This document shows, one piece after another, positions 1 through 17,769 of a stretch of DNA of 18,668 nucleotides. Both the position numbers and the translations under genes were made by a program. The notes under the pieces were generated by a model. That model saw nothing but the letters and a program-made list of their open reading frames with translations. It was not told where the DNA came from and made no database searches. Origin of the DNA: Nitrospira sp. (GTDB taxonomy: Bacteria > Nitrospirota > Nitrospiria > Nitrospirales > Nitrospiraceae). The stretch lies in the NCBI GenBank assembly GCA_025361385.1, contig JANYAJ010000319.1, forward strand, positions 1 to 18,668. The letters are read 5' to 3'. Position 1 is the stretch's first letter. Each line of letters begins with the position of its first letter.

Positions 1-133
1 TGATCCGAAACCGGATACCGGGGAAACGGCCGTCCAGAGCTGTGAGCGCCTCTGCGAGGGTGGAGCCAGTCAGCTCCATCCTCGCCTGCTGCGACGTGTA
101 GGATCGCAATGCGCTGGGGATATGTATCGTCAT
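1..133 (-). CDS. MoaD/ThiS-family sulphur-carrier-like protein, N-terminal part (cut by window edge)
   Basis: Reading the minus strand from the ATG at 133 gives 44 codons that stay open to the window edge, beginning MTIHIPSALRSYTS and continuing through a segment ending RFPGIRFRI. The short first strand (IHIPSALR), the serine/threonine-rich turn and the STLAEALTALDGRFPG helix are the pattern of MoaD/ThiS ubiquitin-like sulphur carriers, which take a thiocarboxylate on a C-terminal Gly-Gly for molybdopterin, thiamin or other sulphur transfer. The C-terminal half, including any Gly-Gly, is outside the window, so activity cannot be judged. The start ATG overlaps the stop of the upstream propeller gene as ATGA, and there is no separate Shine-Dalgarno, so translation is probably coupled. 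Family assignment rests on 44 residues and is moderately secure. Confidence 0.7.
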   Translation of the reverse strand, partial: MTIHIPSALRSYTSQQARMELTGSTLAEALTALDGRFPGIRFRI

Positions 134-1287
134 CGTCCGAGTGCGACCGCTTCAACCGAATAGATTTCAGGCAGATGTCTGGCCATGCAGGTCCAGGTTG
201 CTCCTTCATTCCGGCTGGCCCAGATCTCGCCGCTGGTGGTGCCGAGATAGAGCCCGACGGGGTCATGTGCATCGCGGCTCATCGCCTGACGCTTCACGGT
301 CCACCAGGCGTTTGACTTCGGGAAGCCTTTGTCTTGACGCGTCCAACTCTTGCCGGCGTTCTTGGTTGCAAACGCGGCAGGCTTGCCGCCGGGACTCACG
401 CGCGGCCAGACCGTCGAGCCGTCCATGGGAAAGACCCAGGCTTGGTCCGCATTGCGCGGATGCAGGACCATGGGAAATCCGATATCGCCGATTGTCTTGG
501 GCATGTTCTTGCCGATTCGTACCCAGGTATTCGAGGGCCGGTCGAGGCGATAGATGCCGCAGTGGTTTTGCTGATAGAGCCGGTCAGGATTGCTAGGACA
601 GAGCCGGACGCAATGGGGATCGTGGAAGGTGACGACGGCGGGATCGAACCCCTCCACGATGTCGAGTCCCTGCACCAGAGGCACGAAGGTCTTGCCGCCA
701 TCGACAGATTCATGCACGCCTCCGCCGGACATGGCGAAGTAGAGATGTTTGGGATCGCGCGGGTCCACGAGGATCGAGTGCAGCTTCGGGCCGTCCGGCG
801 TGCCGTCTTGCACCGTGCCCATCCACTCGCGGTATTGCGGATCGTCGTTGATAGAGGAAAACGGCTTCCACGTGACCCCTCCGTCATCGGAACGGAAGAG
901 GCCCTGCGGCGAGGTGCCTGCGTACCAGGCGTTCGGTTCGTTTGCATGACAGGGCGTCAGCCAAAAGGTGTGACCCACCGATCGGCCCTTCTCGCTTTCG
1001 GGAAGTTTAGGAAAGGTCGGCGGGGCCGGCGATTCCTTCCAGGTTTTCCCGGCATTGGTGGAACGATAGAGCGTCGGTCCCAGATGCCCGGTACTGGCCG
1101 CCATCAATATCGTGCGGCGGTCCCGCGGATCGCACACGACGTGATGGATGATGTGGCCGAGGAAGATCGGAGCCGAGAGTTTCCATGTCCGCCTCGTCCG
1201 ATCGCTCTTCAGTGTGAATGCGCCTTTTCTGGTGCCGATCAACAAGGTGACGGCCCCGCTACTGGCTGGTGCGGTCGACAGTTTCAT
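130..1287 (-). CDS. BNR/Asp-box beta-propeller protein (sialidase-like fold, WD40/YVTN/BNR-like)
   Basis: Predicted 385-aa protein without a signal peptide, so probably cytoplasmic. It carries repeated Asp-box-like motifs (NAGKTWKE, DGGVTWKPF, DGGKTFVPL, NAGKSWTRQ, NEGATWTCM), each in the S/T-x-D/N-x-G-x-T/S-W/F pattern of BNR propellers such as sialidases, photosystem assembly factor YCF48 and VPS10 domains. No catalytic sialidase set (Arg triad, Tyr/Glu pair) can be assigned, so a binding or scaffold role is as likely as a glycosidase. The start is ATG 1287, not the longer open frame to 1407, because GGAGG lies at 1294-1298 just upstream and the extra N-terminal residues would overlap the preceding lipoprotein gene. 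It follows that gene by about 20 nt and overlaps the MoaD/ThiS-like gene by ATGA. Confidence 0.85.
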   Translation of the reverse strand: MKLSTAPASSGAVTLLIGTRKGAFTLKSDRTRRTWKLSAPIFLGHIIHHVVCDPRDRRTILMAASTGHLGPTLYRSTNAGKTWKESPAPPTFPKLPESEKGRSVGHTFWLTPCHANEPNAWYAGTSPQGLFRSDDGGVTWKPFSSINDDPQYREWMGTVQDGTPDGPKLHSILVDPRDPKHLYFAMSGGGVHESVDGGKTFVPLVQGLDIVEGFDPAVVTFHDPHCVRLCPSNPDRLYQQNHCGIYRLDRPSNTWVRIGKNMPKTIGDIGFPMVLHPRNADQAWVFPMDGSTVWPRVSPGGKPAAFATKNAGKSWTRQDKGFPKSNAWWTVKRQAMSRDAHDPVGLYLGTTSGEIWASRNEGATWTCMARHLPEIYSVEAVALGR

Positions 1288-1307
1288 TACCGGCCTCCGA
1301 TGTGGGA

Positions 1308-1742
1308 TTACTTCAAAGTTTGCAATGTTTCCCGCAATTCTTTCAGTTCGGTGATCAGGAGGTCCAGATGTTGGTCGCGCTGCGGTTGTTCGTCTTTGAA
1401 CTTCCACAGCCGACCAAAGACCGCCCCGAGTTCTTTCTTGTGCGTCTTGGCCAGGTCATACGCCGGCGTCTTAGCTTGGGCGTCGGTGACTCCACAGAAC
1501 GAATCCATCAAGGCATGTAGTTGGTTGTGGAGGTCATCGAAGGCAGTATCGACGCCTTTGCCGCCTTTGGCTTTCGCCGCCGTGGCTTCCATCATATTCG
1601 TCAGATTGATCATCGTCTCCACGCCGCTGGCGCCTTTGGCCTGCGTCGCATAGTCGCCCGCACGAGGATAAAACAAATAGCTGCAGCCACTGAGCCCGGT
1701 CAGCATCAGGACCAATGCCAACATGCCAATTGTCCGTTGCAT
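1308..1742 (-). CDS. Small lipoprotein, unknown function
   Basis: 144-aa protein with a typical lipoprotein signal: MQRT start, hydrophobic stretch at residues 5-17 and lipobox LSGC with Cys20 as the lipidated residue. The mature part is mainly predicted alpha-helical, with many Lys/Glu/Gln/Leu heptad-like segments near the C-terminus (LDLLITELKELRETLQTLK), suggesting a helical bundle or coiled coil at the membrane face of the periplasm. I do not recognise a named family. AAGGAGG sits 6 nt upstream of the ATG. It is separated from the upstream DUF1579 gene by about 70 nt and followed after about 20 nt by the propeller gene, so it is probably in the same transcript. Confidence 0.85.
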   Translation of the reverse strand: MQRTIGMLALVLMLTGLSGCSYLFYPRAGDYATQAKGASGVETMINLTNMMEATAAKAKGGKGVDTAFDDLHNQLHALMDSFCGVTDAQAKTPAYDLAKTHKKELGAVFGRLWKFKDEQPQRDQHLDLLITELKELRETLQTLK

Positions 1743-1815
1743 AAGAAGCCTCCTTAGGTAAACGTGTAAGGTCTCTAGTCAAGCATGTCGGTCTATCCAG
1801 GTCAATGCCGCGGGA

Positions 1816-2418
1816 TCACGATTTCCTGGTATAGACGATCTCGAGGAACTTCATTTCCTTGCCACCATGGCCGTGCGTCCCGTACATCTCGAACGTCTGG
1901 TTGTTGGCGTCCTTGATCGTCCAGACCGCGCGATGGGACATCTTGCCGCCGCCCGGCTCAGGGTGCGATCCTTTCAACGTGATGGTCTTGCCGTCGGCGC
2001 TGGCCGTGCCCTCCATGAAGAAGATCCCGGTTCCCATGGTGTCGATCCAGGCGGTGACGTATTTCTTGGTCACGTTGTCGTATCCGTCGATCCCGATACC
2101 GGAGAAGGGCAGTCCCATCATCTGTGCGTTGTATTCCTGGTAGAGGAATCGTCCATCCAGCAGCATCTTGGTTTCCGCGGTCCCAGTGGATTCCATCGGT
2201 GGCTTGCCCGGTTCCATCCATTCTTTGGTCTGCGTCGTCCAGCTTCCGGCTAGGGTGGCAAACAGTTTATGGGGTTCGCCGGGCTGGGCCAGCTTCTTCC
2301 AGAGCTCCATCATCGCTTGCGGATCCGTCGGCTTCTCGTGTTTCTTCTCTTTGGCGAGGGCCGGTGAGACAGTCAGCATGGTGCATAATGTAATGGCTGC
2401 GAAAGTTGTCAAACGCAT
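1816..2418 (-). CDS. Secreted DUF1579-family protein
   Basis: 200-aa protein with a Sec signal peptide (hydrophobic core at residues 5-19, cleavage likely after SPALA, residue 22). The mature part has the DUF1579 pattern: an N-terminal helix (PQAMMELWKKLAQPGEPHKLFATLAGSWTT, in part), then antiparallel strands with the motifs LLDGRFLYQEY, GIGIDGYDN and KKYVTAWIDTMGTGIF, and a C-terminal strand EMKFLEIVYTR. The family is a lipocalin-like barrel of unknown function that in many genomes is linked to stress or DGPF/YciI clusters. AAGGAGG lies just before the ATG, and the gene follows the SRPBCC gene with a 15-nt gap, so the two are almost certainly cotranscribed. Confidence 0.85.
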   Translation of the reverse strand: MRLTTFAAITLCTMLTVSPALAKEKKHEKPTDPQAMMELWKKLAQPGEPHKLFATLAGSWTTQTKEWMEPGKPPMESTGTAETKMLLDGRFLYQEYNAQMMGLPFSGIGIDGYDNVTKKYVTAWIDTMGTGIFFMEGTASADGKTITLKGSHPEPGGGKMSHRAVWTIKDANNQTFEMYGTHGHGGKEMKFLEIVYTRKS

Positions 2419-2433
2419 GGCGGCCTCCTTGGT

Positions 2434-2961
2434 TTATTTCTCAGCCAATTGTTTCAGATTGGCCAAGCCGGTTTCAAAGTCTTTTCCGACCATCTTGTCC
2501 ATACCCATCAGCAGATCCATGACCTTCATGATGAAGGGCTGCGGGCCATGCATGGTCCAGGTCACGTTTGTCGCAGACTCACTGCCTTCAATGGTGAACT
2601 CCGCTTGGTTGTGGGCTTCGAATGGCTTGAGAAAGTCCAGCTTGATGGCGACGTGTGAGGAGGAGACGGCATTGACGATTTCCATGCGTCCCGTCCCGAC
2701 ATCGTTATTGCCGTCCCATTCGAGGATAGCGCCTCTCCCGAGTAGTGCGCCGCTGTAGGTCTTCTTCATTGCGGGGTCCATCTTTTCCCAAGGCGACCAG
2801 GAGGCCCACTGATGCAGATCTTGGATGAGTCCGAAGACTTTCTCCGGCGGAGCCGCGATGGCTGCCGTCCGTTGAACCCGGAACGTATCGGGCTTGGTCT
2901 CAGCGTACATGAGAACGGCTGAGATGAGGATCACGGCGAGGATGACGATGTTCTTCTGCAT
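2434..2961 (-). CDS. SRPBCC (polyketide cyclase/START-like) protein with N-terminal membrane segment
   Basis: 175-aa protein. Residues 4-19 form one hydrophobic segment (signal anchor or signal peptide). From residue 28 the START/SRPBCC helix-grip fold follows: VQRTAAIAAPPEKVFGLIQD, then the signature DLHQWASWSPWEKMDP (W.sW.pw), a GRGAILEWDGN strand, GTGRMEIV, and a long C-terminal helix (FETGLANLKQLAE). Such proteins bind hydrophobic ligands; this subtype is annotated as polyketide cyclase or an AHSA1-like protein, with no proven reaction. A strong Shine-Dalgarno (AGGAGGGAGG) overlaps the stop of the YciI gene just upstream, only 9 nt away, which implies translational coupling. Confidence 0.85.
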   Translation of the reverse strand: MQKNIVILAVILISAVLMYAETKPDTFRVQRTAAIAAPPEKVFGLIQDLHQWASWSPWEKMDPAMKKTYSGALLGRGAILEWDGNNDVGTGRMEIVNAVSSSHVAIKLDFLKPFEAHNQAEFTIEGSESATNVTWTMHGPQPFIMKVMDLLMGMDKMVGKDFETGLANLKQLAEK

Positions 2962-2970
2962 GCCTCCCTC

Positions 2971-3402
2971 CTACTTGTTGTGCGCTGCTTGTGCCCGGAC
3001 CCGCTCTTCTTGTTTCCTCAGCTCAGGTGTAAATTCGGCGCCAAAGTCTTCTGGCGAGAAGACTTGGCGAATCTCGATCTCGCCTTCTTTGCCGTCGCCG
3101 GCCGGACTCGGGCAGCGTTTCACCCACGCGATCGCCTCGTCCTTCGATTTGACTTGCCACAGCCAGTAGCCGGCGATGAGCTCTTTCGTCTCGGCAAAGG
3201 GACCGTCGATGAGCGTGCGCGTAGTTCCGGAAAATGTGACACGCGTGCCTTTCGAGCTCGGGTGAAGCCCCTCTCCAGCTAGAAGTATCCCGGCCTTCAC
3301 CAACTCCTCGTTGTACTTGCCCATTTCGGTCAACAGCTGCTCGCTCGGCATTGCACCCGCTTCCGAATCCTTCGTGGCTTTGACAAGAATCATGAATCGC
3401 AT
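2971..3402 (-). CDS. DGPF/YciI-family protein (copy 1, most divergent)
   Basis: 143-aa protein. The YciI/DGPF dimeric alpha-beta barrel domain is at residues 1-115: MRFMILVKATKDSE strand, a helix with KYNEELVKAGILL, the strand-turn GEGLHPSSKGTRV, and the signature LIDGPFAETKELIAGYWLWQV with Asp-Gly-Pro-Phe, then KSKDEAIAWVKRCP. A longer C-terminal tail (FGAEFTPELRKQEERVRAQ) is typical of the DGPF proteins encoded beside ECF42 sigma factors. Family members are distantly related to EthD and muconolactone-isomerase-like enzymes, with no settled substrate. Start supported by AAGGAGA 7 nt upstream. Copies 2 and 3 lie further upstream in the same set. Confidence 0.9.
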   Translation of the reverse strand: MRFMILVKATKDSEAGAMPSEQLLTEMGKYNEELVKAGILLAGEGLHPSSKGTRVTFSGTTRTLIDGPFAETKELIAGYWLWQVKSKDEAIAWVKRCPSPAGDGKEGEIEIRQVFSPEDFGAEFTPELRKQEERVRAQAAHNK

Positions 3403-3450
3403 GGTGGTGTCTCCTTCCGCACAGTGGCTCGAGCGTATTTCCTGACCGGC

Positions 3451-3936
3451 TTATGTCCCATCATAGGCTCGCTTGATTGTCTTGATATCGGGCTTGGTCA
3501 TTTGCAGGATGGCCTGCATCACCCTTTCGGACTTAATGGGATCCTTGTCCCGCAACATCTTGTCCCATTCAGGCACCACGATCTGCCAGGATAGACCATA
3601 TTTATCTTTGAGCCAGCCACAAGGGCCTTCTTCACCGCCTTCGGAAAGCTTGCGCCACATCTCGTCGATTTCCGCCTGTGTGTGGCATTTCACCATGAAC
3701 GAGACCGCCTCGGTAAACTTGAAGAGCGGTCCGCCGTTGAGGGCGATGAACTCCTCCCCGTCGATTTCGAATGTGACGGTCATGACCGAGCCCTTCGGTC
3801 TTCCTGAGACTGCTGCGCCGGCTTCTCCATAGTAGGTTGTATGCCGGAGCTTCGAATGCTTGAAGATCGAGACATAAAACTTCGCTGCCTCTTCGGCGTT
3901 ATCGTTGAACCACAAACAGGTGGTGATCTTCTGCAT
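3451..3936 (-). CDS. PhnB-like VOC protein (glyoxalase/3-demethylubiquinone-9 methyltransferase fold)
   Basis: 161-aa protein of the PhnB-type vicinal-oxygen-chelate superfamily: KITTCLWFNDNAEEAAKFY at the N-terminus, a GSVMTVTFEIDGEEFIALNGGP core, FTEAVSFMVKCHTQAEIDEMW, GWLKDKYGLSWQIVVPEW, and a C-terminal helix (RVMQAILQMTKPDIKTIKRAY). These proteins form beta-alpha-beta-beta-beta dimers related to glyoxalase and fosfomycin-resistance folds. The database name '3-demethylubiquinone methyltransferase' is historical, and methyltransferase activity should not be assumed. The Shine-Dalgarno GAGAGGAA precedes the ATG. PhnB-type VOC genes commonly accompany DGPF/ECF sigma clusters. Gaps of about 60 nt upstream and 48 nt downstream are compatible with one transcript. 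Confidence 0.88.
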   Translation of the reverse strand: MQKITTCLWFNDNAEEAAKFYVSIFKHSKLRHTTYYGEAGAAVSGRPKGSVMTVTFEIDGEEFIALNGGPLFKFTEAVSFMVKCHTQAEIDEMWRKLSEGGEEGPCGWLKDKYGLSWQIVVPEWDKMLRDKDPIKSERVMQAILQMTKPDIKTIKRAYDGT

Positions 3937-3990
3937 GCGGTGTTCCTCTCTTACATCAAGTCGAGTCGTTTCTCGCAGGAAGTTGCTTTA

Positions 3991-4008
3991 ACTCAGCACT
4001 CAGCACTT
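3991..4008 (+). repeat. CTCAGCACT direct repeat (two and a bit units) at the end of a YciI gene
   Basis: ACTCAGCACTCAGCACTT is two head-to-tail copies of a CTCAGCA unit followed by CT. The same motif recurs in the MFS gene at 14309-14354. Here it forms the 3' end of YciI copy 2, which is on the opposite strand, and the adjoining non-coding spacer. Confidence 0.7.
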
Positions 4009-4374
4009 TTCCACTTCAGGTAGTCCCGTGATCTCAATCAATGGCCGCACTTCAACGGTTCCGATCCGAGCGCCTGGTACCCGAGAAGCGATGCTGACGG
4101 CCTCATTCAGATTCCTCGCAGTCACCAAAAAATAGCCTGCGATCTGCTCGCGCGTTTCGATGAAGGGGCCGTCGGTCACGAAGGGTTTGCCCTCGCGCAC
4201 TCTCACAATTACTGACGTGCCGGCCGGATGCAGCGGCGAGGCATGGACGTATTGTCCTGCGGCATGAAGCTGGTGCGTCAGCTCGATGGATTCGGCGAGC
4301 AGTGCCTGTCGCTCTTCCTGCTCGATCTTCTTGAACGCCTCTTCGTCATGATGCACGATCAATAAGAATTTCAT
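4000..4374 (-). CDS. DGPF/YciI-family protein (copy 2)
   Basis: 124-aa protein covering just the YciI domain: MKFLLIVHHDEEAF strand, a long helix to LHAAGQYVHASPLHPAGTSVIV, the signature VTDGPFIETREQIAGYFLV with DGPF, NLNEAVSIASRVPGARIGTVEVRP at the C-terminus. It is close to copy 3 in length, layout and wording (ASPLHP, DGPF-ET-EQ, GYFLV/GYLLI, GTVEVRPL/GSIEVRPL), so the two look like a tandem duplication. The gene ends inside an ACTCAGCACTCAGCACTT repeat (3991-4008 on the plus strand), which supplies the last Cys codon and the TGA. GGGAA lies upstream of the ATG. Confidence 0.9.
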   Translation of the reverse strand: MKFLLIVHHDEEAFKKIEQEERQALLAESIELTHQLHAAGQYVHASPLHPAGTSVIVRVREGKPFVTDGPFIETREQIAGYFLVTARNLNEAVSIASRVPGARIGTVEVRPLIEITGLPEVEKC

Positions 4375-4410
4375 GGCATGATTCCCGAGATGATCGCGAT
4401 CGCTTGCGGA

Positions 4411-4767
4411 TTACGCACAGCCGCCTTCTTTCAGCGGCCGCACCTCGATGCTCCCGTACTGGGCTCCGGGAAACTTCGAGGCGATCCGTATGGCGTCGTT
4501 CAGGTCTCTGACATCGATCAGAAGGTAGCCGCCCAGCTGTTCCTTCGTTTCGGCAAAGGGCCCATCGGTCGTGGAGACTTTTCCGCTTCGCACCCGCACC
4601 GTCGTCGCGGTCTCCACCGGGTGGAGCGGCGAGGCCGCGATGAACTGGCCGTTTTTTTGCAGCTCGTCGCAGTAGGCCATGGATTCATTCGAGAGCGTGA
4701 CCCGCTCGTTTTGTGGCATGGCGTGGAGTATTTTCTCCTCAAGGTAGACTAAGCAAAGGTATTTCAT
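4411..4767 (-). CDS. DGPF/YciI-family protein (copy 3)
   Basis: 118-aa YciI/DGPF protein: MKYLCLVYLEEKIL strand, a helix with YCDELQKNGQFI, ASPLHPVETATTVRV, the signature TTDGPFAETKEQLGGYLLI, DLNDAIRIASKFPGAQYGSIEVRPL. The open frame extends to 4887, but the real start is ATG 4767: AGGAG lies 6 nt upstream, and the extra 40 residues overlap the VOC gene and look nothing like the family. It lies about 50 nt after the VOC gene and about 36 nt before copy 2, and no promoter-like motif is seen in either gap, so it is probably read from the candidate ECF promoter near 5272-5297. Confidence 0.9.
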   Translation of the reverse strand: MKYLCLVYLEEKILHAMPQNERVTLSNESMAYCDELQKNGQFIAASPLHPVETATTVRVRSGKVSTTDGPFAETKEQLGGYLLIDVRDLNDAIRIASKFPGAQYGSIEVRPLKEGGCA

Positions 4768-4819
4768 GGCCTGCTCCTGATGAATGGTGTGGCGAATCCA
4801 TCCTTCGGCTGTGAATGCA

Positions 4820-5230
4820 TCACGCAGCTTGCTCGTTCGGCTCCCAGAGTGCGAAGACGTTCTGCTCCGTGTCCTCGCAGATCGCAAAGTAACCCATGTG
4901 CGGCACGCTAGTTTTTGGTTTGCAGACTATTCCTCCCAGCTTCTGAACTTTGGCCAGGGCCTTGTCGACCGATAGGACCGTCACATAGACCGTGATGGAA
5001 TGCCCGGGATGCATCCGGGGCAAGAGCCCACCGTCCGGAGAGGCATCCTTTCCGCCGGTGTCGATGTGCCAGTAGTCGGCGATGGCCGCGGGCAACTTCG
5101 CGAACTTCCAACCGAATAACGACGTATAGAACTTCTTCGCCCGTTTCAGATCGTCTGCGGGAACGTCAAACCAACAGACACTTGCTGCTTGTAGTGGTTG
5201 TTTCACCTTTTTCTTTGCCGGTTTTGCCAT
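4820..5230 (-). CDS. VOC-family protein (glyoxalase/bleomycin-resistance fold)
   Basis: 136-aa single-domain VOC protein. After a Lys-rich start (MAKPAKKKVK), residues 17-41 read SVCWFDVPADDLKRAKKFYTSL plus FGW, the usual first beta-alpha unit; then YWHIDTGG, GGLLPRMHPGH, ITVYVTVLSVDKALAKVQKLGG and PKTSVPHMGYFAICEDTEQN with FALWEPNE. This matches the subgroup with a 'PKT..P.MGYFA...DTE.N.FglWE' ending that is widespread next to DGPF genes. No enzyme activity can be assigned; a metal site is possible but not confirmed. The start is ATG 5230 with GGAGG 5 nt upstream, rather than the longer frame to 5344. It is the first gene after the candidate ECF promoter. Confidence 0.88.
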   Translation of the reverse strand: MAKPAKKKVKQPLQAASVCWFDVPADDLKRAKKFYTSLFGWKFAKLPAAIADYWHIDTGGKDASPDGGLLPRMHPGHSITVYVTVLSVDKALAKVQKLGGIVCKPKTSVPHMGYFAICEDTEQNVFALWEPNEQAA

Positions 5231-5271
5231 GGCATCCTCCAAGATTAAGTAAGCTCTGTTGTCATGAGATA

Positions 5272-5297
5272 GTCGTTGGAAGATCTCAAAATCGACA
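5272..5297 (-). promoter_or_regulatory. Candidate ECF42-type promoter (TGTCGA-N16-CGAC)
   Basis: On the minus strand, TGTCGA (5297-5292) is followed by exactly 16 nt and then CGAC (5275-5272). This agrees with the consensus I recall for ECF42-dependent promoters (TGTCGA at -35, CGA[T/C] at -10). The predicted transcript start would fall near 5265, about 35 nt before ATG 5230 and upstream of its GGAGG, a normal leader length. It lies in the 110-nt gap between the sigma gene and the VOC/DGPF genes. TGTCGA alone is common in this GC-rich sequence, but the paired motif in an intergenic gap in the right orientation is not expected by chance at this site. Confidence 0.6.
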
Positions 5298-5340
5298 TCG
5301 GCCTGCCAGTTTCGAGACATTAATAATTGTTGCTGCTCGA

Positions 5341-6636
5341 TCAATGGTTTATGGATGAGAGCGATGGGTCATTAGCCGGCAAAGCCAGCAGTTCAGCCAA
5401 CCGTTTCCTCAAAAACCTCCGCTCCGGTTCCTGCTGTGTCAGGCTCAGGGCTCGCTGGTAAGAGGCGCGGGCCTCTTTCGTCCGTCCCAGTCGGCGACAG
5501 AGATCCGCTCGCGCGGCATGGGCCAAGTGATAGGTGTCCAGATCGCCTCTCTTCAAAATGGCATCGACCAACTCCAGACCGGCGAGGGGACCATCGCGCA
5601 TGGCCACGGCGACCGCGCGGTTGAGTTTGATGACCGGGGAGGGGTCGGCTTGGAGTAAGAGGCTGTAGAGCTCGACGATCTGCTTCCAATCCGTCGCGGC
5701 GGCGGTCGGGACTTGCGCATGTGCGGCGGCGATCGCAGCTTGAACCGTATAGGCTCCGACGTGGCCTATCGAGAAGGCCTGCTGTACGAGCGCAACGCCC
5801 TCTGCAATCTGCTCACGGTTCCAGAGTGAGCGGTCCTGATCTTCCAGGAGAATCAGCTCGCCGGCTGCTGAGGCGCGCGCGGCCCGCCGTGAGTCTTGTA
5901 AGAGCATCAGCCCCAGCAGTCCCAGCACCTCTGCTTGCGGGATCAGTGCGATCAGCACTCGCGCCAGGCGAACCGCCTCTCCACAGAGATCATGCCGGGT
6001 GACTGTTTCACCGAAGGAGGCCGAGTATCCTTCGTTGAAGACGAGGTAGACCACGCGGAGCACGGCGTCCCATCGATCCGGCAGTTCTTTCTCGGGTGGG
6101 ACTTCATAGGGAATGCGCGCGTCGCGGATCTTGGCCTTGGCCCGCACGATTCGCTGCGCGATGGTGGCCGGTTTTGTCAGGAATGCCCGCGCGATCTCTT
6201 CAGTCGTGAGACCGCAGACTTCGCGCAGAGTCATGGCGACCTGGGCTTCAGGCGCGAGGGCGGGATGGCAGCAAGTGAAGATCAATCGGAGCCGGTCATC
6301 CTGGAGGTGTTCGTCCTCCTGCTGTTCGGTCTCAATGGTGGTTGTGGGTTCCGTTTCCTTCGCCAACTCTGCCACAGACGCATCATGCCGGGCGCGACGG
6401 CGCATCCCGTCGATGGCTTTGAAGCGGCCGGTCGAAACGAGCCAGGCGCGTGGATTGGCCGGCACACCCTCTCGCGACCATTGTTCGAGCGCCACCGCAA
6501 AGGCTTCGTGCAAGGCCTCTTCGGCGGCGTCGAAGTCGCCAAGCAGACGGATCAACGTCGCGAGCACCTGTCGCGACTCAGCGCGGTAGATTGCCTCCAC
6601 CGCCACACGCGCCCGATTGGATGCCTCATCGCTCAT
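5341..6636 (-). CDS. ECF42-type RNA polymerase sigma factor with long C-terminal TPR-like extension (DUF6596)
   Basis: 431-aa protein. Sigma region 2 is at about residues 14-85 (AIYRAESRQVLATLIRLLGD, AAEEALHEAFAVALEQW, PRAWLVSTGRFKAIDGMRR); region 4 at about 112-172 (DDRLRLIFTCCHPAL, VAMTLREVCGLTTEEIARAF, IAQRIVRAKAKIRDA). From about 180 onward is the DUF6596-type extension with RVVYLVFNEGYSAS, LLGLMLLQDSRRAAR, LYSLLLQADPSPVIKLNRAVAV, and helical-hairpin repeats (HLAHAARADLCRRLGRTKEAR) of TPR character. This layout, about 250 residues beyond region 4, is that of the ECF42 group, which lacks a cognate anti-sigma factor and is linked to DGPF genes, as here. ATG 6636 has only a distant GGAGAG; the open frame upstream to 7062 is ruled out because it overlaps the TetR gene. 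The gene follows TetR by 26 nt. Confidence 0.92.
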   Translation of the reverse strand: MSDEASNRARVAVEAIYRAESRQVLATLIRLLGDFDAAEEALHEAFAVALEQWSREGVPANPRAWLVSTGRFKAIDGMRRRARHDASVAELAKETEPTTTIETEQQEDEHLQDDRLRLIFTCCHPALAPEAQVAMTLREVCGLTTEEIARAFLTKPATIAQRIVRAKAKIRDARIPYEVPPEKELPDRWDAVLRVVYLVFNEGYSASFGETVTRHDLCGEAVRLARVLIALIPQAEVLGLLGLMLLQDSRRAARASAAGELILLEDQDRSLWNREQIAEGVALVQQAFSIGHVGAYTVQAAIAAAHAQVPTAAATDWKQIVELYSLLLQADPSPVIKLNRAVAVAMRDGPLAGLELVDAILKRGDLDTYHLAHAARADLCRRLGRTKEARASYQRALSLTQQEPERRFLRKRLAELLALPANDPSLSSINH

Positions 6637-6662
6637 CGGTTGGGGTATCTCTCCAAGAAAAT

Positions 6663-7259
6663 TCAGTGGAGGATCGACAGCGCCGTCTTCGCGGTCTGCC
6701 TCACTACGTCGGCCGGTGTGCCGGCTTTGATCATCACAATTGTGCCTTGCATCATCGTCACCAGGACGCGTGCCAGCCCGAGAGGATCTTTGCTTTGCCC
6801 CAGCCCGCCCTCTTGTTTGGCGCGGGTCAGCAGCTTGAAGAATGCTGTTTCCAGCGTCTGAAGTCGTCCCGACACTTTTTTTGCGATATCGTGCTGGTGC
6901 GGGGCCAGCTCCATGGCGGTATTGGCGATGAAACAACCGCGCCGCTGCGGATCGGAGAGCGCGAATTCCACCATGCCCTCGATGAACTGGCGGATCAGAG
7001 GAATGGCCGGACCTGGCTGACTCAACATGGACAGTCTGCTGCCGAGACTGCCGCCAGCGCAATAGAGGTCCATGGCTTTCAAAAATAGTTCGCGTTTGTC
7101 GCCGAAGGTGGCATAGAGGCTGCCCCGATTGATGTCCATCGCGGTGAGCAGATCTTCCATCGAGGTCGCTTCGTAGCCCTTGTGCCAGAAGACCTGCATG
7201 GCTTTCTCAAGCGCCTCATCCGGATTGAATTCTTTCGGGCGAGACATGCGGGCGTCCAT
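6663..7259 (-). CDS. TetR/AcrR-family transcriptional regulator
   Basis: 198 aa from ATG 7259, or 194 from ATG 7247 (MSRPKEFNPDEAL); neither start has a clear Shine-Dalgarno, and the second matches the usual family beginning. The N-terminal HTH is clear: LEKAMQVFWHKGYEATSMED, LLTAMDINRGSLYATFGDKR, then ELFLKAMDLY. The C-terminal ligand domain contains IRQFIEGMVEFALSDPQRRG and CFIANTAMELAP, the pattern of the TetR_C subgroup that responds to small or electrophilic ligands; the Cys in RRGCF is a possible redox or electrophile sensor (inference). It is the first gene of the sigma/DGPF block, 26 nt upstream of the ECF42 gene, so it may control sigma synthesis and its own. Confidence 0.9.
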   Translation of the reverse strand: MDARMSRPKEFNPDEALEKAMQVFWHKGYEATSMEDLLTAMDINRGSLYATFGDKRELFLKAMDLYCAGGSLGSRLSMLSQPGPAIPLIRQFIEGMVEFALSDPQRRGCFIANTAMELAPHQHDIAKKVSGRLQTLETAFFKLLTRAKQEGGLGQSKDPLGLARVLVTMMQGTIVMIKAGTPADVVRQTAKTALSILH

Positions 7260-7275
7260 CCTAATCTTGTCTAGG
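7260..7275 (-). promoter_or_regulatory. Possible TetR operator at its own start (imperfect inverted repeat)
   Basis: Minus-strand CCTAGACAAGATTAGG has matching ends (CCTA...TAGG) and agrees with its own complement at 10 of 16 positions. It directly abuts the TetR start codon and would cover the start point of a promoter formed by TTGATC (7310-7305) and TATTGT (7286-7281) with an 18-nt spacer. Autoregulation through a site here is usual for the family, but the symmetry is modest. Confidence 0.3.
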
Positions 7276-7338
7276 AAACGACAATATCACATACTGGAAC
7301 GATCGATCAATAACGGCTGTTTCGGCATCGATCCGCCT

Positions 7339-7348
7339 TGTCGCGACA
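7339..7348. promoter_or_regulatory. Perfect 10-bp palindrome TGTCGCGACA in the divergent spacer
   Basis: TGTCGCGACA equals its own reverse complement. It lies between the divergent TetR and PilZ genes, just upstream of the candidate promoter at 7361-7389, so it could be an operator. No partner copy was found in the window. Role unknown. Confidence 0.35.
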
Positions 7349-7360
7349 GGATACATATAT

Positions 7361-7389
7361 TTGCGGAACCCTTTTGTTTTCTATACAAT
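7361..7389 (+). promoter_or_regulatory. Candidate sigma-70-type promoter for the PilZ gene
   Basis: TTGCGG (7361-7366), a 17-nt spacer and TACAAT (7384-7389). The -10 differs from TATAAT at one base and the surrounding 7350-7390 stretch is AT-rich compared with neighbours; the -35 keeps only TTG. It would give a leader of about 100 nt before the ATG at 7497. Confidence 0.4.
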
Positions 7390-7496
7390 CGCGCGTGCGG
7401 TGTATTACAACCTCACAGTCGCAGGAATGCCGACAATCCGGTTGGGAGAATGCCGGGCAGGGGCGATGTCATTCGTTGCATAGGTGGAGTTCGCGC

Positions 7497-7934
7497 ATGA
7501 AGCAGATCGTGGAATCGATACGGACGTACGGGAAATCGTTGCTGCGGAAGATAGGCCTGCACATTGCGGAGCCCACCGCGCAGGCAACGGCTTGGCATGG
7601 GATACAGCCTCTTCGGGTTGAACGGCGGCGGGAAACACGTAATCCGAGGATCACGCCTTGTACCTATGGCTTGATGCGATCGGTAGATCGCGATGCCGTC
7701 ACGCTTGAAGAAGGGCAGGGCACGGCGGTGAACGATAGTCCGACCGGATTGCGGCTGCTGCTCGGCGTCGCTCCGTCCAAAGGGCAGCTTCTGGAAATCC
7801 AAACCGGCGATTCAGCGTTCAAAAATGCGATCTGCCTGGCAGAAGTCTGTTGGACGAAACCTCTCAGAAAAGAATCGCAAGGAGTGCTGTACCTTGTCGG
7901 TTGCCGTGTGAACTTCGGGACCACGCACCTCTGA
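7497..7934 (+). CDS. PilZ-domain-like protein (probable c-di-GMP receptor)
   Basis: 145-aa protein. An N-terminal helical segment (residues 1-38) precedes a PilZ-like core: R43-R44-R45-E-T-R48 fits the RxxxR c-di-GMP motif, and N79-D-S81-P-T-G84 fits the (D/N)xSxxG motif about 30 residues later. The rest (LRLLLGVAPSKGQLLEI, AICLAEVCWTKPL, GVLYLVGCRVNFG) follows the PilZ barrel with its Trp and terminal GC-F strand. PilZ proteins bind cyclic di-GMP and change the activity of a partner. The start is ATG 7497 with AGGTGGAG 7 nt upstream; the longer open frame from 7338 has no Shine-Dalgarno and crosses the promoter region. It stands alone, divergent from TetR, with no partner enzyme beside it. 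Confidence 0.75.
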   Translation: MKQIVESIRTYGKSLLRKIGLHIAEPTAQATAWHGIQPLRVERRRETRNPRITPCTYGLMRSVDRDAVTLEEGQGTAVNDSPTGLRLLLGVAPSKGQLLEIQTGDSAFKNAICLAEVCWTKPLRKESQGVLYLVGCRVNFGTTHL

Positions 7935-7979
7935 GGTCGTTGATCTACCCCGTGCATTCTCCCTGGCGTCCTTATGTGG

Positions 7980-14830: not shown

Positions 14831-15142
14831 TCAATGGTGTCTGTCGCGTTGCCGGACCATTTTCTGCTCAGGGTTGGTGCGGCATTTTTTGGTCGGGGGG
14901 TGAGCGGCGATCAGTGCCAGTTTCTCTTCTCTACGAAGTGATTTGATCGAGGCCTCACGTGTCAGCGCGGCGCCTTTGCTGTCCTGCTGCTCGGTATATC
15001 GTACGGTGACCGGACCGCGGTGTTTCGTGTATTTGGCGCCTTTGCCTGTCCCATGTTCTTCCACTCGCCGCGCGAGATCGTTCGTGATGCCGGTATACAG
15101 ACTGCCGTCCGAGCATTCCACGATATAGATGATCCACGTCAT
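14831..15142 (-). CDS. GIY-YIG nuclease-domain protein (UPF0213/YhbQ-like)
   Basis: 103 aa, almost wholly a stand-alone GIY-YIG domain: WIIYIVECSDGSLYTGITND holds the two tyrosines of the GIY-YIG strand pair in the form IYIV...LYTGIT, followed by LARRVEEHGTGKGAKYTKHRG, VTVRYTEQQ, AALTREASIKSLRREEKLALI with the conserved Arg and Glu. This matches the UPF0213/YhbQ group, whose members have weak DNA nuclease activity and an unclear cellular role. A short basic tail follows (TKKCRTNPEQKMVRQRD). The ATG 15142 has only a weak GGAA upstream. It is a single-gene unit between convergent and divergent neighbours. Confidence 0.92.
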   Translation of the reverse strand: MTWIIYIVECSDGSLYTGITNDLARRVEEHGTGKGAKYTKHRGPVTVRYTEQQDSKGAALTREASIKSLRREEKLALIAAHPPTKKCRTNPEQKMVRQRDRHH

Positions 15143-16176: not shown

Positions 16177-17769
16177 TTAGTTCAACGGGGGAACCACTCC
16201 GGCAAATGTCAGCAGGTCGGTCATGTGAAACTCGCCTGGCGTCGCAGAGGGCAACAGGGGTGTCCAATGTGGCCTGGCTGACAGATAGGAGGTGTCATCG
16301 GCTTTCAGCAGACCGATAAACACTTCACCGACGATGCGGCCTCCCACCGGTCCCAAGCGGAGACCATTCTCTACGAGTTCCGCCTCTTTCAAAATATAGA
16401 ACCACAGCGGCGTGCTTTTCTCCATCTCGAAGGGCGCGAGCGCGCTCAGTTGCGCCGGTGTCAGCACCGGAAGGCCCATCCGTCGGGCAATCGCTTGACC
16501 GGAGGGTATGCCGAAATTGACGTGGCGCATCAGATTGCGCGAGGCCAGCGATTGAACCCCGTCGGCAGGCAGTGCCGTTGCAGGCCCGCGTGAGCCGGGG
16601 AGCAACATCACGACGCTGGAGAGCTTCGTGTCGATACGTTTGTTGGGACGGAAGTTGCCATCGCCGAAATTGAAGAACGTTTGCCAGTCGACAAACCGGC
16701 GGGCTGTGCGCTTTCCGCCCCGCAGATCGTTGGGGTCCGGGTCGTTGGGATCTTGGGCATCGTCGAAGAGAAACACGAAGAACGGATTGTGCCCCATATC
16801 GGGACGGCCGAAGTTGAGGCGGTAGCTGGGACGGATTTGCGAATGGCCAAAACGATAGGCCGCCACCGAAAACTCGATCGGCATCAGTGGATTGTCCCGA
16901 TCGAAGTGATAGAAGCGGATTCCATGATTCAAAATATCATCGACGCGCGCTTGCCCGATGGTCAGCGGCAGAAAATCGTGCAGGATGATCCATTGATAGT
17001 GCCAGCGGACCTGGCGTCGAGCTTCTCTGAAAATCTGTTCGGCGGAATCACCGGCGTTCGACGGGTCGGCCCGGAGCCGGTCGGTGACTGCATTGTGAAA
17101 CCGGAGCATGGCCGTATGGAGCTGGGAGAGGATCACGTTCTCGTCGTTGCGCCGGTCTCCTAGAAGCGCCGTGAGCGTATTGGGATCCCGTGGGAGATCG
17201 AACCGGACCGCTCCGTTGCGCGAAAACTGTTCAGATCCTGGAATGGTCTCGACGCGCAACTTGATGATGCCGGTGCTCAGGTCATACAACTCCGGGGACC
17301 GTTCCGGCCCGCCGCCATAGACACTGTCCAGATCGAACTTCGGCGTCCGAAAGTTGGTCGTCTTCTCGGGGTTGGATTTTTCGAGCAAGGGAGAATTCGG
17401 ATCGAACGTAATATCGTGGTCGAGGAACTGGCCCAGGAATGTCATGCCGGACGTCATGTTGGGATTGTCGGGATTGTTCGGACTGAACTGGGCGGGATTT
17501 GCAATCGACAACACCGGATCGCTGAGAATATCTAGCGCATCGATGAGGCCGCCTTTTTCCCCCAGCTTCTTGGCCTGGTCACGTGCCGCATCGGTTGGCG
17601 GTGCAAAGGGAGGCAACTCAGGAAACATCCTGGTAAAGGACATATCCCGGTCTCTCTCTCGACCCCGATCTCTCTCTCCATCGTCCGCCACAGCGAGACC
17701 AAGCAGTGCGGTAGAGCACAGCGCTCCTGCTAGCCCGGCGCGTAGAACCGTCTGACGACAATACGACAT
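16177..17769 (-). CDS. Secreted animal-type haem peroxidase (peroxidase-cyclooxygenase superfamily)
   Basis: 530 aa with a Sec-type N-terminus (RAGLAGALCSTALLGLAVA) followed by a highly charged linker DGERDRGRERDRD. The catalytic domain has the hallmark motifs: GQFLDHDITFDP with Asp117 and distal His118; GDRRNDENVILSQLHTAML plus RFHN (210s) matching the conserved Arg/Glu and 'LHT..L..HN' helix; WIILHDFLP; and FSVAAYRFGHSQIRPSY with proximal His309. The last third has RNLMRHVNFGIPSGQAIARR and LWFYILKEAE, as in bacterial peroxicins and peroxinectin-like enzymes. These use H2O2 to oxidise halides or phenols outside the cytoplasm. AGGAGG lies 5 nt before ATG 17769. Confidence 0.92.
   Translation of the reverse strand: MSYCRQTVLRAGLAGALCSTALLGLAVADDGERDRGRERDRDMSFTRMFPELPPFAPPTDAARDQAKKLGEKGGLIDALDILSDPVLSIANPAQFSPNNPDNPNMTSGMTFLGQFLDHDITFDPNSPLLEKSNPEKTTNFRTPKFDLDSVYGGGPERSPELYDLSTGIIKLRVETIPGSEQFSRNGAVRFDLPRDPNTLTALLGDRRNDENVILSQLHTAMLRFHNAVTDRLRADPSNAGDSAEQIFREARRQVRWHYQWIILHDFLPLTIGQARVDDILNHGIRFYHFDRDNPLMPIEFSVAAYRFGHSQIRPSYRLNFGRPDMGHNPFFVFLFDDAQDPNDPDPNDLRGGKRTARRFVDWQTFFNFGDGNFRPNKRIDTKLSSVVMLLPGSRGPATALPADGVQSLASRNLMRHVNFGIPSGQAIARRMGLPVLTPAQLSALAPFEMEKSTPLWFYILKEAELVENGLRLGPVGGRIVGEVFIGLLKADDTSYLSARPHWTPLLPSATPGEFHMTDLLTFAGVVPPLN
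17641..17684. repeat. CTCTCT-rich low-complexity tract in the peroxidase gene
   Basis: GGTCTCTCTCTCGACCCCGA and a second TCTCTCTCTC run encode the Asp/Arg/Glu-rich linker after the signal peptide. The repeat may be prone to length change. Confidence 0.55.

Follow-up and report, generated by a model that had tools for sequence, protein, structure and literature searches.

Gene layout of the locus

The DNA analysed here, called the window, is the 18,668-nucleotide contig JANYAJ010000319.1 of Nitrospira sp. (assembly GCA_025361385.1), and its subject is a gene cluster on the minus strand that begins with a TetR-family regulator, continues with an ECF42-type sigma factor and a VOC/YciI gene set, and ends with SRPBCC, DUF1579, lipoprotein-like, BNR-repeat and MoaD-like genes (Table 1). 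Pfam searches bore out this gene content and order, which had first been described in a reading made from the letters alone (the sequence-only reading). Comparison with related genomes showed that the TetR and ECF42 modules lie apart in most genomes of the genus that have them, that within a single syntenic locus the ECF42 cassette occupies, or is missing from, exactly defined points, that at least two ECF42 lineages occur in this locus, and that a conserved site of its own goes with each module.

Table 1 Features of the TetR-ECF42 locus in the window
Feature	Position	Strand	Basis
Candidate TetR operator TTGATCGATCGTTCCA, near-palindrome, over the -35-like TTGA(T/C)C of the TetR gene	7295..7310	-	upstream alignment
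TetR-family regulator, CifR-related, Cys in RRGC motif	6663..7259	-	Pfam TetR_N + TetR_C_13
ECF42 cassette extent (missing from the corresponding place in G008)	2963..6664		blastn against G008 and G021; junction alignment
ECF42-type sigma factor, sigma2-sigma4-DUF6596-TPR, 431 aa	5341..6636	-	Pfam, tree, AlphaFold2
ECF42-type promoter TGTCGATTTTGAGATCTTCCAACGAC, its end 41 bases from the VOC ATG	5272..5297	-	motif against RpoE10 promoters
VOC/glyoxalase-fold protein	4820..5230	-	Glyoxalase PF00903, PF22677
YciI/DGPF protein a (YciIa)	4411..4767	-	YCII PF03795
YciI/DGPF protein b (YciIb)	4000..4374	-	YCII PF03795
PhnB-like VOC protein, 3-dmu-9_3-mt	3451..3936	-	PF06983
YciI/DGPF protein c (YciIc)	2971..3402	-	YCII PF03795
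SRPBCC protein (Polyketide_cyc2)	2434..2961	-	PF10604; next after TetR in G008, G021
DUF1579 protein	1816..2418	-	PF07617; after SRPBCC in G008, G021
Small lipoprotein-like protein, conserved in TetR locus	1308..1742	-	no Pfam match
BNR-repeat propeller protein (BNR1)	130..1287	-	PF02012, PF15902
ThiS/MoaD-like gene, 4-base overlap with BNR, cut by contig end	1..133	-	sequence; G017 copy

The start of the VOC gene was set at the ATG at 5230 and not at the open reading frame start at 5344. All three YciI proteins (4767-4411, 4374-4000 and 3402-2971) read DGPF, and the 3-dmu-9_3-mt family of the protein at 3936-3451 is presumably part of the VOC superfamily. The 44-residue ThiS/MoaD-like piece at the contig end had no Pfam match, and its full-length copy in genome G017 belonged to the ThiS family (44.4 bits). 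Comparison of 11 genes with G017 gave ratios of nonsynonymous to synonymous substitution (dN/dS) of 0.04-0.29, which indicates purifying selection, so the gene set is not a product of chance. The spacing from the TetR stop codon to the sigma ATG is 26 bases. The gaps between YciIc, SRPBCC and DUF1579 are 9-15 bases, and the coding (minus) strand from 1 to 7700 gave no terminator-like site, which argues for a single transcript. A scan for sigma-70-like promoters on the gene strand gave two matches (2412-2385 and 2477-2448; mean of shuffled sequences 2.3) and listed none within 5341-7259, the scan covering one promoter type. Rfam and tRNA scans gave no matches.

Distribution of the TetR and ECF42 modules in Nitrospira

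The genus set comprised 32 Nitrospira genomes, and a wider set of 61 genomes (20 ECF42-positive and 41 ECF42-negative) was used for pattern searches. The TetR was present in 22 of the 32 genomes (once as a fragment) and ECF42 in 14, and 13 genomes had both. Linkage of the two regulators on one contig and within 4 kb was found in four of these 13 (G000, G017, G007 and G011), or in five with the inferred case of G023, and in eight the regulators were present yet unlinked. The sequence-only reading had spoken of a TetR-ECF42 regulator pair; what was found is adjacency only, and the pair as a conserved unit was not borne out by these counts. It had also proposed a search for the same gene order in relatives. 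The TetR-sigma junction proved to be common to G000 and G011, and direct abutment of TetR on sigma was seen in the window and G011; in most genomes of the genus that have them, the modules lie apart. Starting from the sigma factor, 89 of 95 ECF42 loci had no match to this TetR within the locus lengths examined, and among the six matches one (L101) was weak.

The locus was also found without the cassette. In G008, TetR is followed directly by the SRPBCC, DUF1579, lipoprotein-like and BNR genes, and the block from sigma to YciIc (2963-6664) is missing. By blastn, this locus (L163) was colinear with the window at 87.4% for 70-2962 and at 78.2% for 6665-7936, and the same gap was found in G021 (L164). 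Whole or in part, the series from SRPBCC to the MoaD-like gene follows TetR without ECF42 in G008, G021, G018 and G036. Among 20 other TetR loci the genes behind TetR were variable; BNR1 was present in nine of them and the lipoprotein-like gene in 18, the contigs of the remaining two ending before reaching it. Thus the earlier description of the ECF42 set as extended by SRPBCC, DUF1579, lipoprotein, BNR and MoaD genes is right as to the genes present and largely the wrong way round, since these are TetR-locus genes in ECF42-free genomes.

G023 has a different ECF42 lineage at another point of the same locus, between SnoaL and DUF1579, and this insertion is absent in its sister G018 (grouping support 100/99); the G023 contigs end and begin at the adjoining positions 7178 and 7182 of the G018 locus L173. 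A single clade of the five linked ECF42s was rejected by the approximately unbiased (AU) test (p-AU 0.00256; 51 rows chosen from the 98 sigma sequences, L097 not counted as linked), and at least three changes are needed. L096 is not in this count, as it has Lipo and methyltransferase matches alone, and its inclusion gives four changes on the 98-sequence tree. On the sigma tree, the window clade is nested inside ECF42s located elsewhere.

Other neighbours of the two regulators were observed as well. A protein with weak 4Fe-4S and SCP2 matches is encoded between TetR and ECF42 in G017 (L113, 6627-7985) and beside TetR in G007, and is absent from the window. The chromosome of the cultured species Nitrospira moscoviensis (L097) shows a third arrangement, in which TetR follows a lineage B ECF42 set at a distance of 6.5 kb.

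The propeller genes differed between the two kinds of ECF42 locus. BNR1 and a second propeller, BNR2, are about 34% identical. The fused TetR-ECF42 loci had BNR1 in five of five cases and BNR2 in one (G011, which has both), and among 30 unfused ECF42 loci of lineages A and B that have both YciIa and YciIb, BNR2 was present in 23 and BNR1 in none; the split gave p 0.026, with kinship uncorrected and some loci short. In many unfused loci BNR2 stands among the YciI/VOC genes with a small partner gene, which was MoaD-like by phmmer and by eye and had no Pfam match in L097, where its coordinates are unverified. Across the 32 genomes, BNR1 was present in 14, BNR2 in 14 (two partial), both in four and neither in eight, and no strict exclusion of one by the other was found. 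The statement that BNR2 never occurs in fused loci, which had held for the first four of four, was dropped after G011. With the ECF42-type site before YciIc in G011 (described below), this is at most a hint that after capture the genes of the TetR operon serve in the ECF42 response.

The two regulators and their conserved sites

The 431-residue sigma factor has Sigma70_r2 at residues 16-83 (PF04542), Sigma70_r4_2 at 119-170 (PF08281), DUF6596 at 188-287 (120.8 bits) and TPR_2 at 371-400, with no sigma3 region, and it scored 53.9 bits against TIGR02937 (cut-off 42.9). Pfam thus confirmed the layout of region 2, region 4, DUF6596 and TPR, with the TPR-bearing C-terminal extension that in ECF42 factors has about 200 residues, and the sequence supports the ECF42 identity. 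The extension had been described as about 250 residues of TPR-like DUF6596. Its TPR character was supported by the structure prediction that the sequence-only reading had proposed, in which residues ~290-421 resembled the TPR fold (AlphaFold2, mean predicted local distance difference test score 80.8; the structure search chiefly covers parts above about residue 124), and the DUF6596 label had to be narrowed to about 100 of the ~255 residues. The YCII/DGPF neighbours usual for ECF42 are three in the window, and a YciI match was present in 82 of the 95 related loci. No anti-sigma family was matched in Pfam among the 11 genes scanned (130-7259), of which the lipoprotein-like gene matches no Pfam family.

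Homologs of the sigma factor numbered at least 8000 proteins at E ≤ 0.001, and the best 120 were 78-100% identical. In the tree of 98 sequences (five duplicate loci, L131, L128 and L129 left out) the sigmas of the window, G011 and G017 formed one group (support 99) within a larger, mostly Nitrospira set; five plasmid-borne homologs, 42.9-52.7% identical and on long branches, served as far references and came from a survey of 5 of 139 matching plasmid records. The FTCCHP motif of region 4 was nearly invariant (C122 in 96, C123 in 97 and H124 in 98 of the 98 rows) and Cys141 of the same region was kept in 93, which together could possibly form a redox or metal site; we know of no role for FTCCHP in ECF42-type sigmas. 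On plasmid pPNP1 of Pseudomonas sp. JS425 (L187), two IS6100 copies flank an ECF42-like sigma gene next to a class 1 integron, from which it appears that such sigmas can travel on mobile DNA.

The general ECF42 promoter motif is TGTCGR...CGWC. The window site 5297-5272 reads TGTCGA-N16-CGAC, and the exact pattern TGTCGATTT-N13-CGAC occurs once in the 3.05-Mb window genome (a draft in 562 contigs), before the VOC gene. With this promoter in front of the VOC gene and no terminator-like site behind it, the proposal that the sigma factor feeds the DGPF/VOC set agrees with the sequence. Upstream of VOC, YciI or PhnB genes in the 95 related loci (duplicates dropped), TGTCGR-N16/17-CGWC was found in 72 of the 82 loci having a target gene. 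Spacers of 16 and 17 accounted for 61 and 49 sites (110 in total), and other spacers between 10 and 24 for 0-4 each, except 13 with 24 sites, an excess that may come from sites ending CGACGAC. The strict site TGTCGATTT-N13/14-CGAC gave 59 matches across the 61 genomes against two for the reversed control, eight of the 59 being one repeated match, and 16 of the 20 ECF42-positive genomes carried it within 10 kb of the sigma gene (22 sites). In G011, 80 bases separate the end of an ECF42-type site from YciIc; behind this gene, on the same strand, come a 524-base gap, DUF1579, the lipoprotein-like gene and BNR1. Locus L131 (G006:C18) has VOC-YciI-YciI and an ECF42-type site in a genome that is 83% complete and in which no intact ECF42 was found, only fragments matching the last TPR residues.

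The nearest solved relatives of the TetR protein in the PDB were 2i10 (uncharacterised) and then CifR (6nsn/6nsm), with 6nsn matching residues 5-188 at E 4.3e-18, so kinship with CifR-type repressors extends over the whole chain. The RRGC cysteine was invariant in 23 aligned TetR sequences and aligns with the cysteine of CifR, a position occupied by Ser in 6nsm. Because no alpha/beta-hydrolase (cif-like epoxide hydrolase) was found among the 20 window proteins scanned, we classify the regulator as a CifR relative and not as a CifR. Alignment of the regions upstream of TetR in Nitrospira genomes showed a conserved near-palindrome over the presumed -35 element. The exact form TTGAYYGATCRTTCCA was found in 19 of the 61 genomes, never more than once per genome, and the reversed control gave no match. 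Of these copies 17 lie just upstream of TetR; the remaining two are in G021, where TetR sits at a contig end, and G052. TetR without the exact form was found in G007, G019, G028 and G036.

Elsewhere on the minus strand, the window encodes a protein of 530 residues (16177-17769) that matches the animal haem peroxidase family PF03098 and a small GIY-YIG domain protein (14831-15142).

Origin and control of the locus, and known relatives

We think it probable that a mobile ECF42 cassette was captured by a TetR-headed operon and that the ECF42 promoter now serves both gene sets. The mobile unit would consist of the sigma gene, its -35/-10 promoter and the VOC-YciI-YciI-PhnB-YciI genes, and would have come to lie between the TetR gene and the SRPBCC-DUF1579-lipoprotein-BNR-ThiS genes. 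TetR would act as a repressor on its own promoter and, through it, on the sigma gene that begins 26 bases further on; release of TetR would allow sigma to be made. Such gating of sigma by TetR is plausible. The sigma factor, its activity depending on the TPR extension, would then start transcription at 5297-5272, with read-through down to the ThiS-like gene. Judging by the families encoded (VOC, YciI, SRPBCC), the output looks like small-molecule or electrophile handling.

Several observations weigh against this account. The linkage in G023 crosses a contig gap, and the sigma-70 scan did not detect the assumed TetR promoter. The TetR of G011 is decayed, having lost its DNA-binding half and the RRGC cysteine, yet the ECF42 set remains there, so the set can persist without TetR. 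On the TetR tree (built without G024, which was partly masked) G008 groups with G017 (94/94), so G008 may have lost the cassette. Four of the 20 ECF42-positive genomes had no strict site near the sigma gene; 22 strict sites, 17 of them not the repeated match, occurred in the 41 ECF42-negative genomes, some of which are incomplete assemblies; and 15 further sites, three being the repeated match, lie away from the sigma gene in ECF42-positive genomes.

The alternative that survives best concerns control only: the window ECF42 may not be under TetR at all, being transcribed from its own promoter inside TetR, with the TPR extension as the sole control on its activity. Elsewhere, ECF42s occur without this TetR, and a review reports the extension as essential and proposes that it binds a partner, for which a YciI protein has been put forward. 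The absence of a listed sigma-70-like site in 5341-7259 speaks against such a promoter, in a scan of one promoter type that missed the assumed TetR promoter too, and we regard this alternative as quite possible, if not the one we would choose. A second alternative concerns history only, with a TetR-ECF42 locus ancestral in the clade and the cassette lost by deletion from G008 and G021. The position of G008 beside the cassette-bearing G017 fits such a loss, as does the junction common to G000 and G011, but 17 of the 22 TetR-bearing genus genomes show no adjoining ECF42 (some on short contigs), G021 is also without the cassette although it falls outside G000+G017+G008 on the downstream-gene tree, and the window clade is nested among ECF42s lying elsewhere, so we consider this history doubtful. 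The weakest alternative, an ordinary ECF42-DGPF cluster beside an unrelated TetR operon with non-interacting regulators and a separate promoter for the downstream genes, could draw on the eight genomes with unlinked regulators, the 89 ECF42 loci without this TetR and the TetR decay in G011, but it is unlikely given at least two ECF42 lineages in the same locus (by rough arithmetic, a second insertion would by chance fall into ~16 kb out of 3.5 Mb with a probability of ~0.5%), the closely spaced genes that suggest one transcript, and two sigma-70-like matches no more numerous than shuffles give.

Beyond the capture itself, the locus might be a two-tier switch, in which a CifR-like TetR senses electrophiles and governs how much ECF42 is supplied, cassettes enter repeatedly because both regulators control parts of one pathway, and the propeller and ThiS-like pair form a fixed slot of that pathway, filled by either BNR1 or BNR2. 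We offer this as speculation that is rather improbable as a whole; if it were true, the signal for these ECF42s would be the TetR ligand.

By sequence, the sigma factor, targets and promoter are those of ECF42 as already described. Sven_0747/4377/7131 of Streptomyces venezuelae, RpoE10 of Sinorhizobium meliloti and ECF-10 of Pseudomonas putida likewise have sigma2-sigma4 and a TPR-bearing extension, a YCII neighbour, glyoxylase-like and hydrophobic-ligand-type targets and a TGTCGR...CGWC promoter; they are described as having no recognised anti-sigma gene. Given RpoE10, the kinds of member in the downstream set are not new. The three RpoE10 promoters in PMC6180224 read TGTCGG-N17-CGTC by our own spacer count; unlike these, the window site has a spacer of 16, a -10 of CGAC and a -35 that extends as TGTCGATTT. 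The window cassette also differs from all these systems in lying inside a TetR-headed operon. In the literature on ECF42, DGPF/YCII and DUF6596 sigmas, in which subscription papers were mostly outside reach, none of the titles listed dealt with ECF42 cassettes in TetR operons, and their capture, more than once, in Nitrospira is apparently undescribed. Through this locus ECF42 would be tied to a ligand-binding repressor whose class of ligand can be tested, and the single-site promoter can be rebuilt as a reporter.

CifR of Pseudomonas aeruginosa, the nearest characterised TetR among PDB entries, is a repressor of an operon and comes off its DNA in the presence of certain epoxides (PMC8244358). 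The window TetR has a cysteine at the same RGC position; unlike CifR, which is divergent from its operon, it is co-directional, and no epoxide hydrolase gene was found among the window genes scanned. A TetR gene beside YciI-ECF42 is also present on a plasmid of Streptomyces sp. NBC_01136 (TetR-YciI-ECF42), and that TetR has no real similarity to the window TetR (15 bits). The Nitrospira TetR-lipoprotein-BNR loci of G008, G018, G021 and G036 have the same TetR and downstream genes, with similar flanks in G008 and a similar operator-like site in G008 and G018, and unlike the window are without ECF42, VOC and YciI genes. The genome pairs with and without the cassette (G023/G018 and G017/G008) set the two states of the locus side by side, and the locus would be an example of a sigma cassette taking over the transcription of an operon that belongs to a different regulator.

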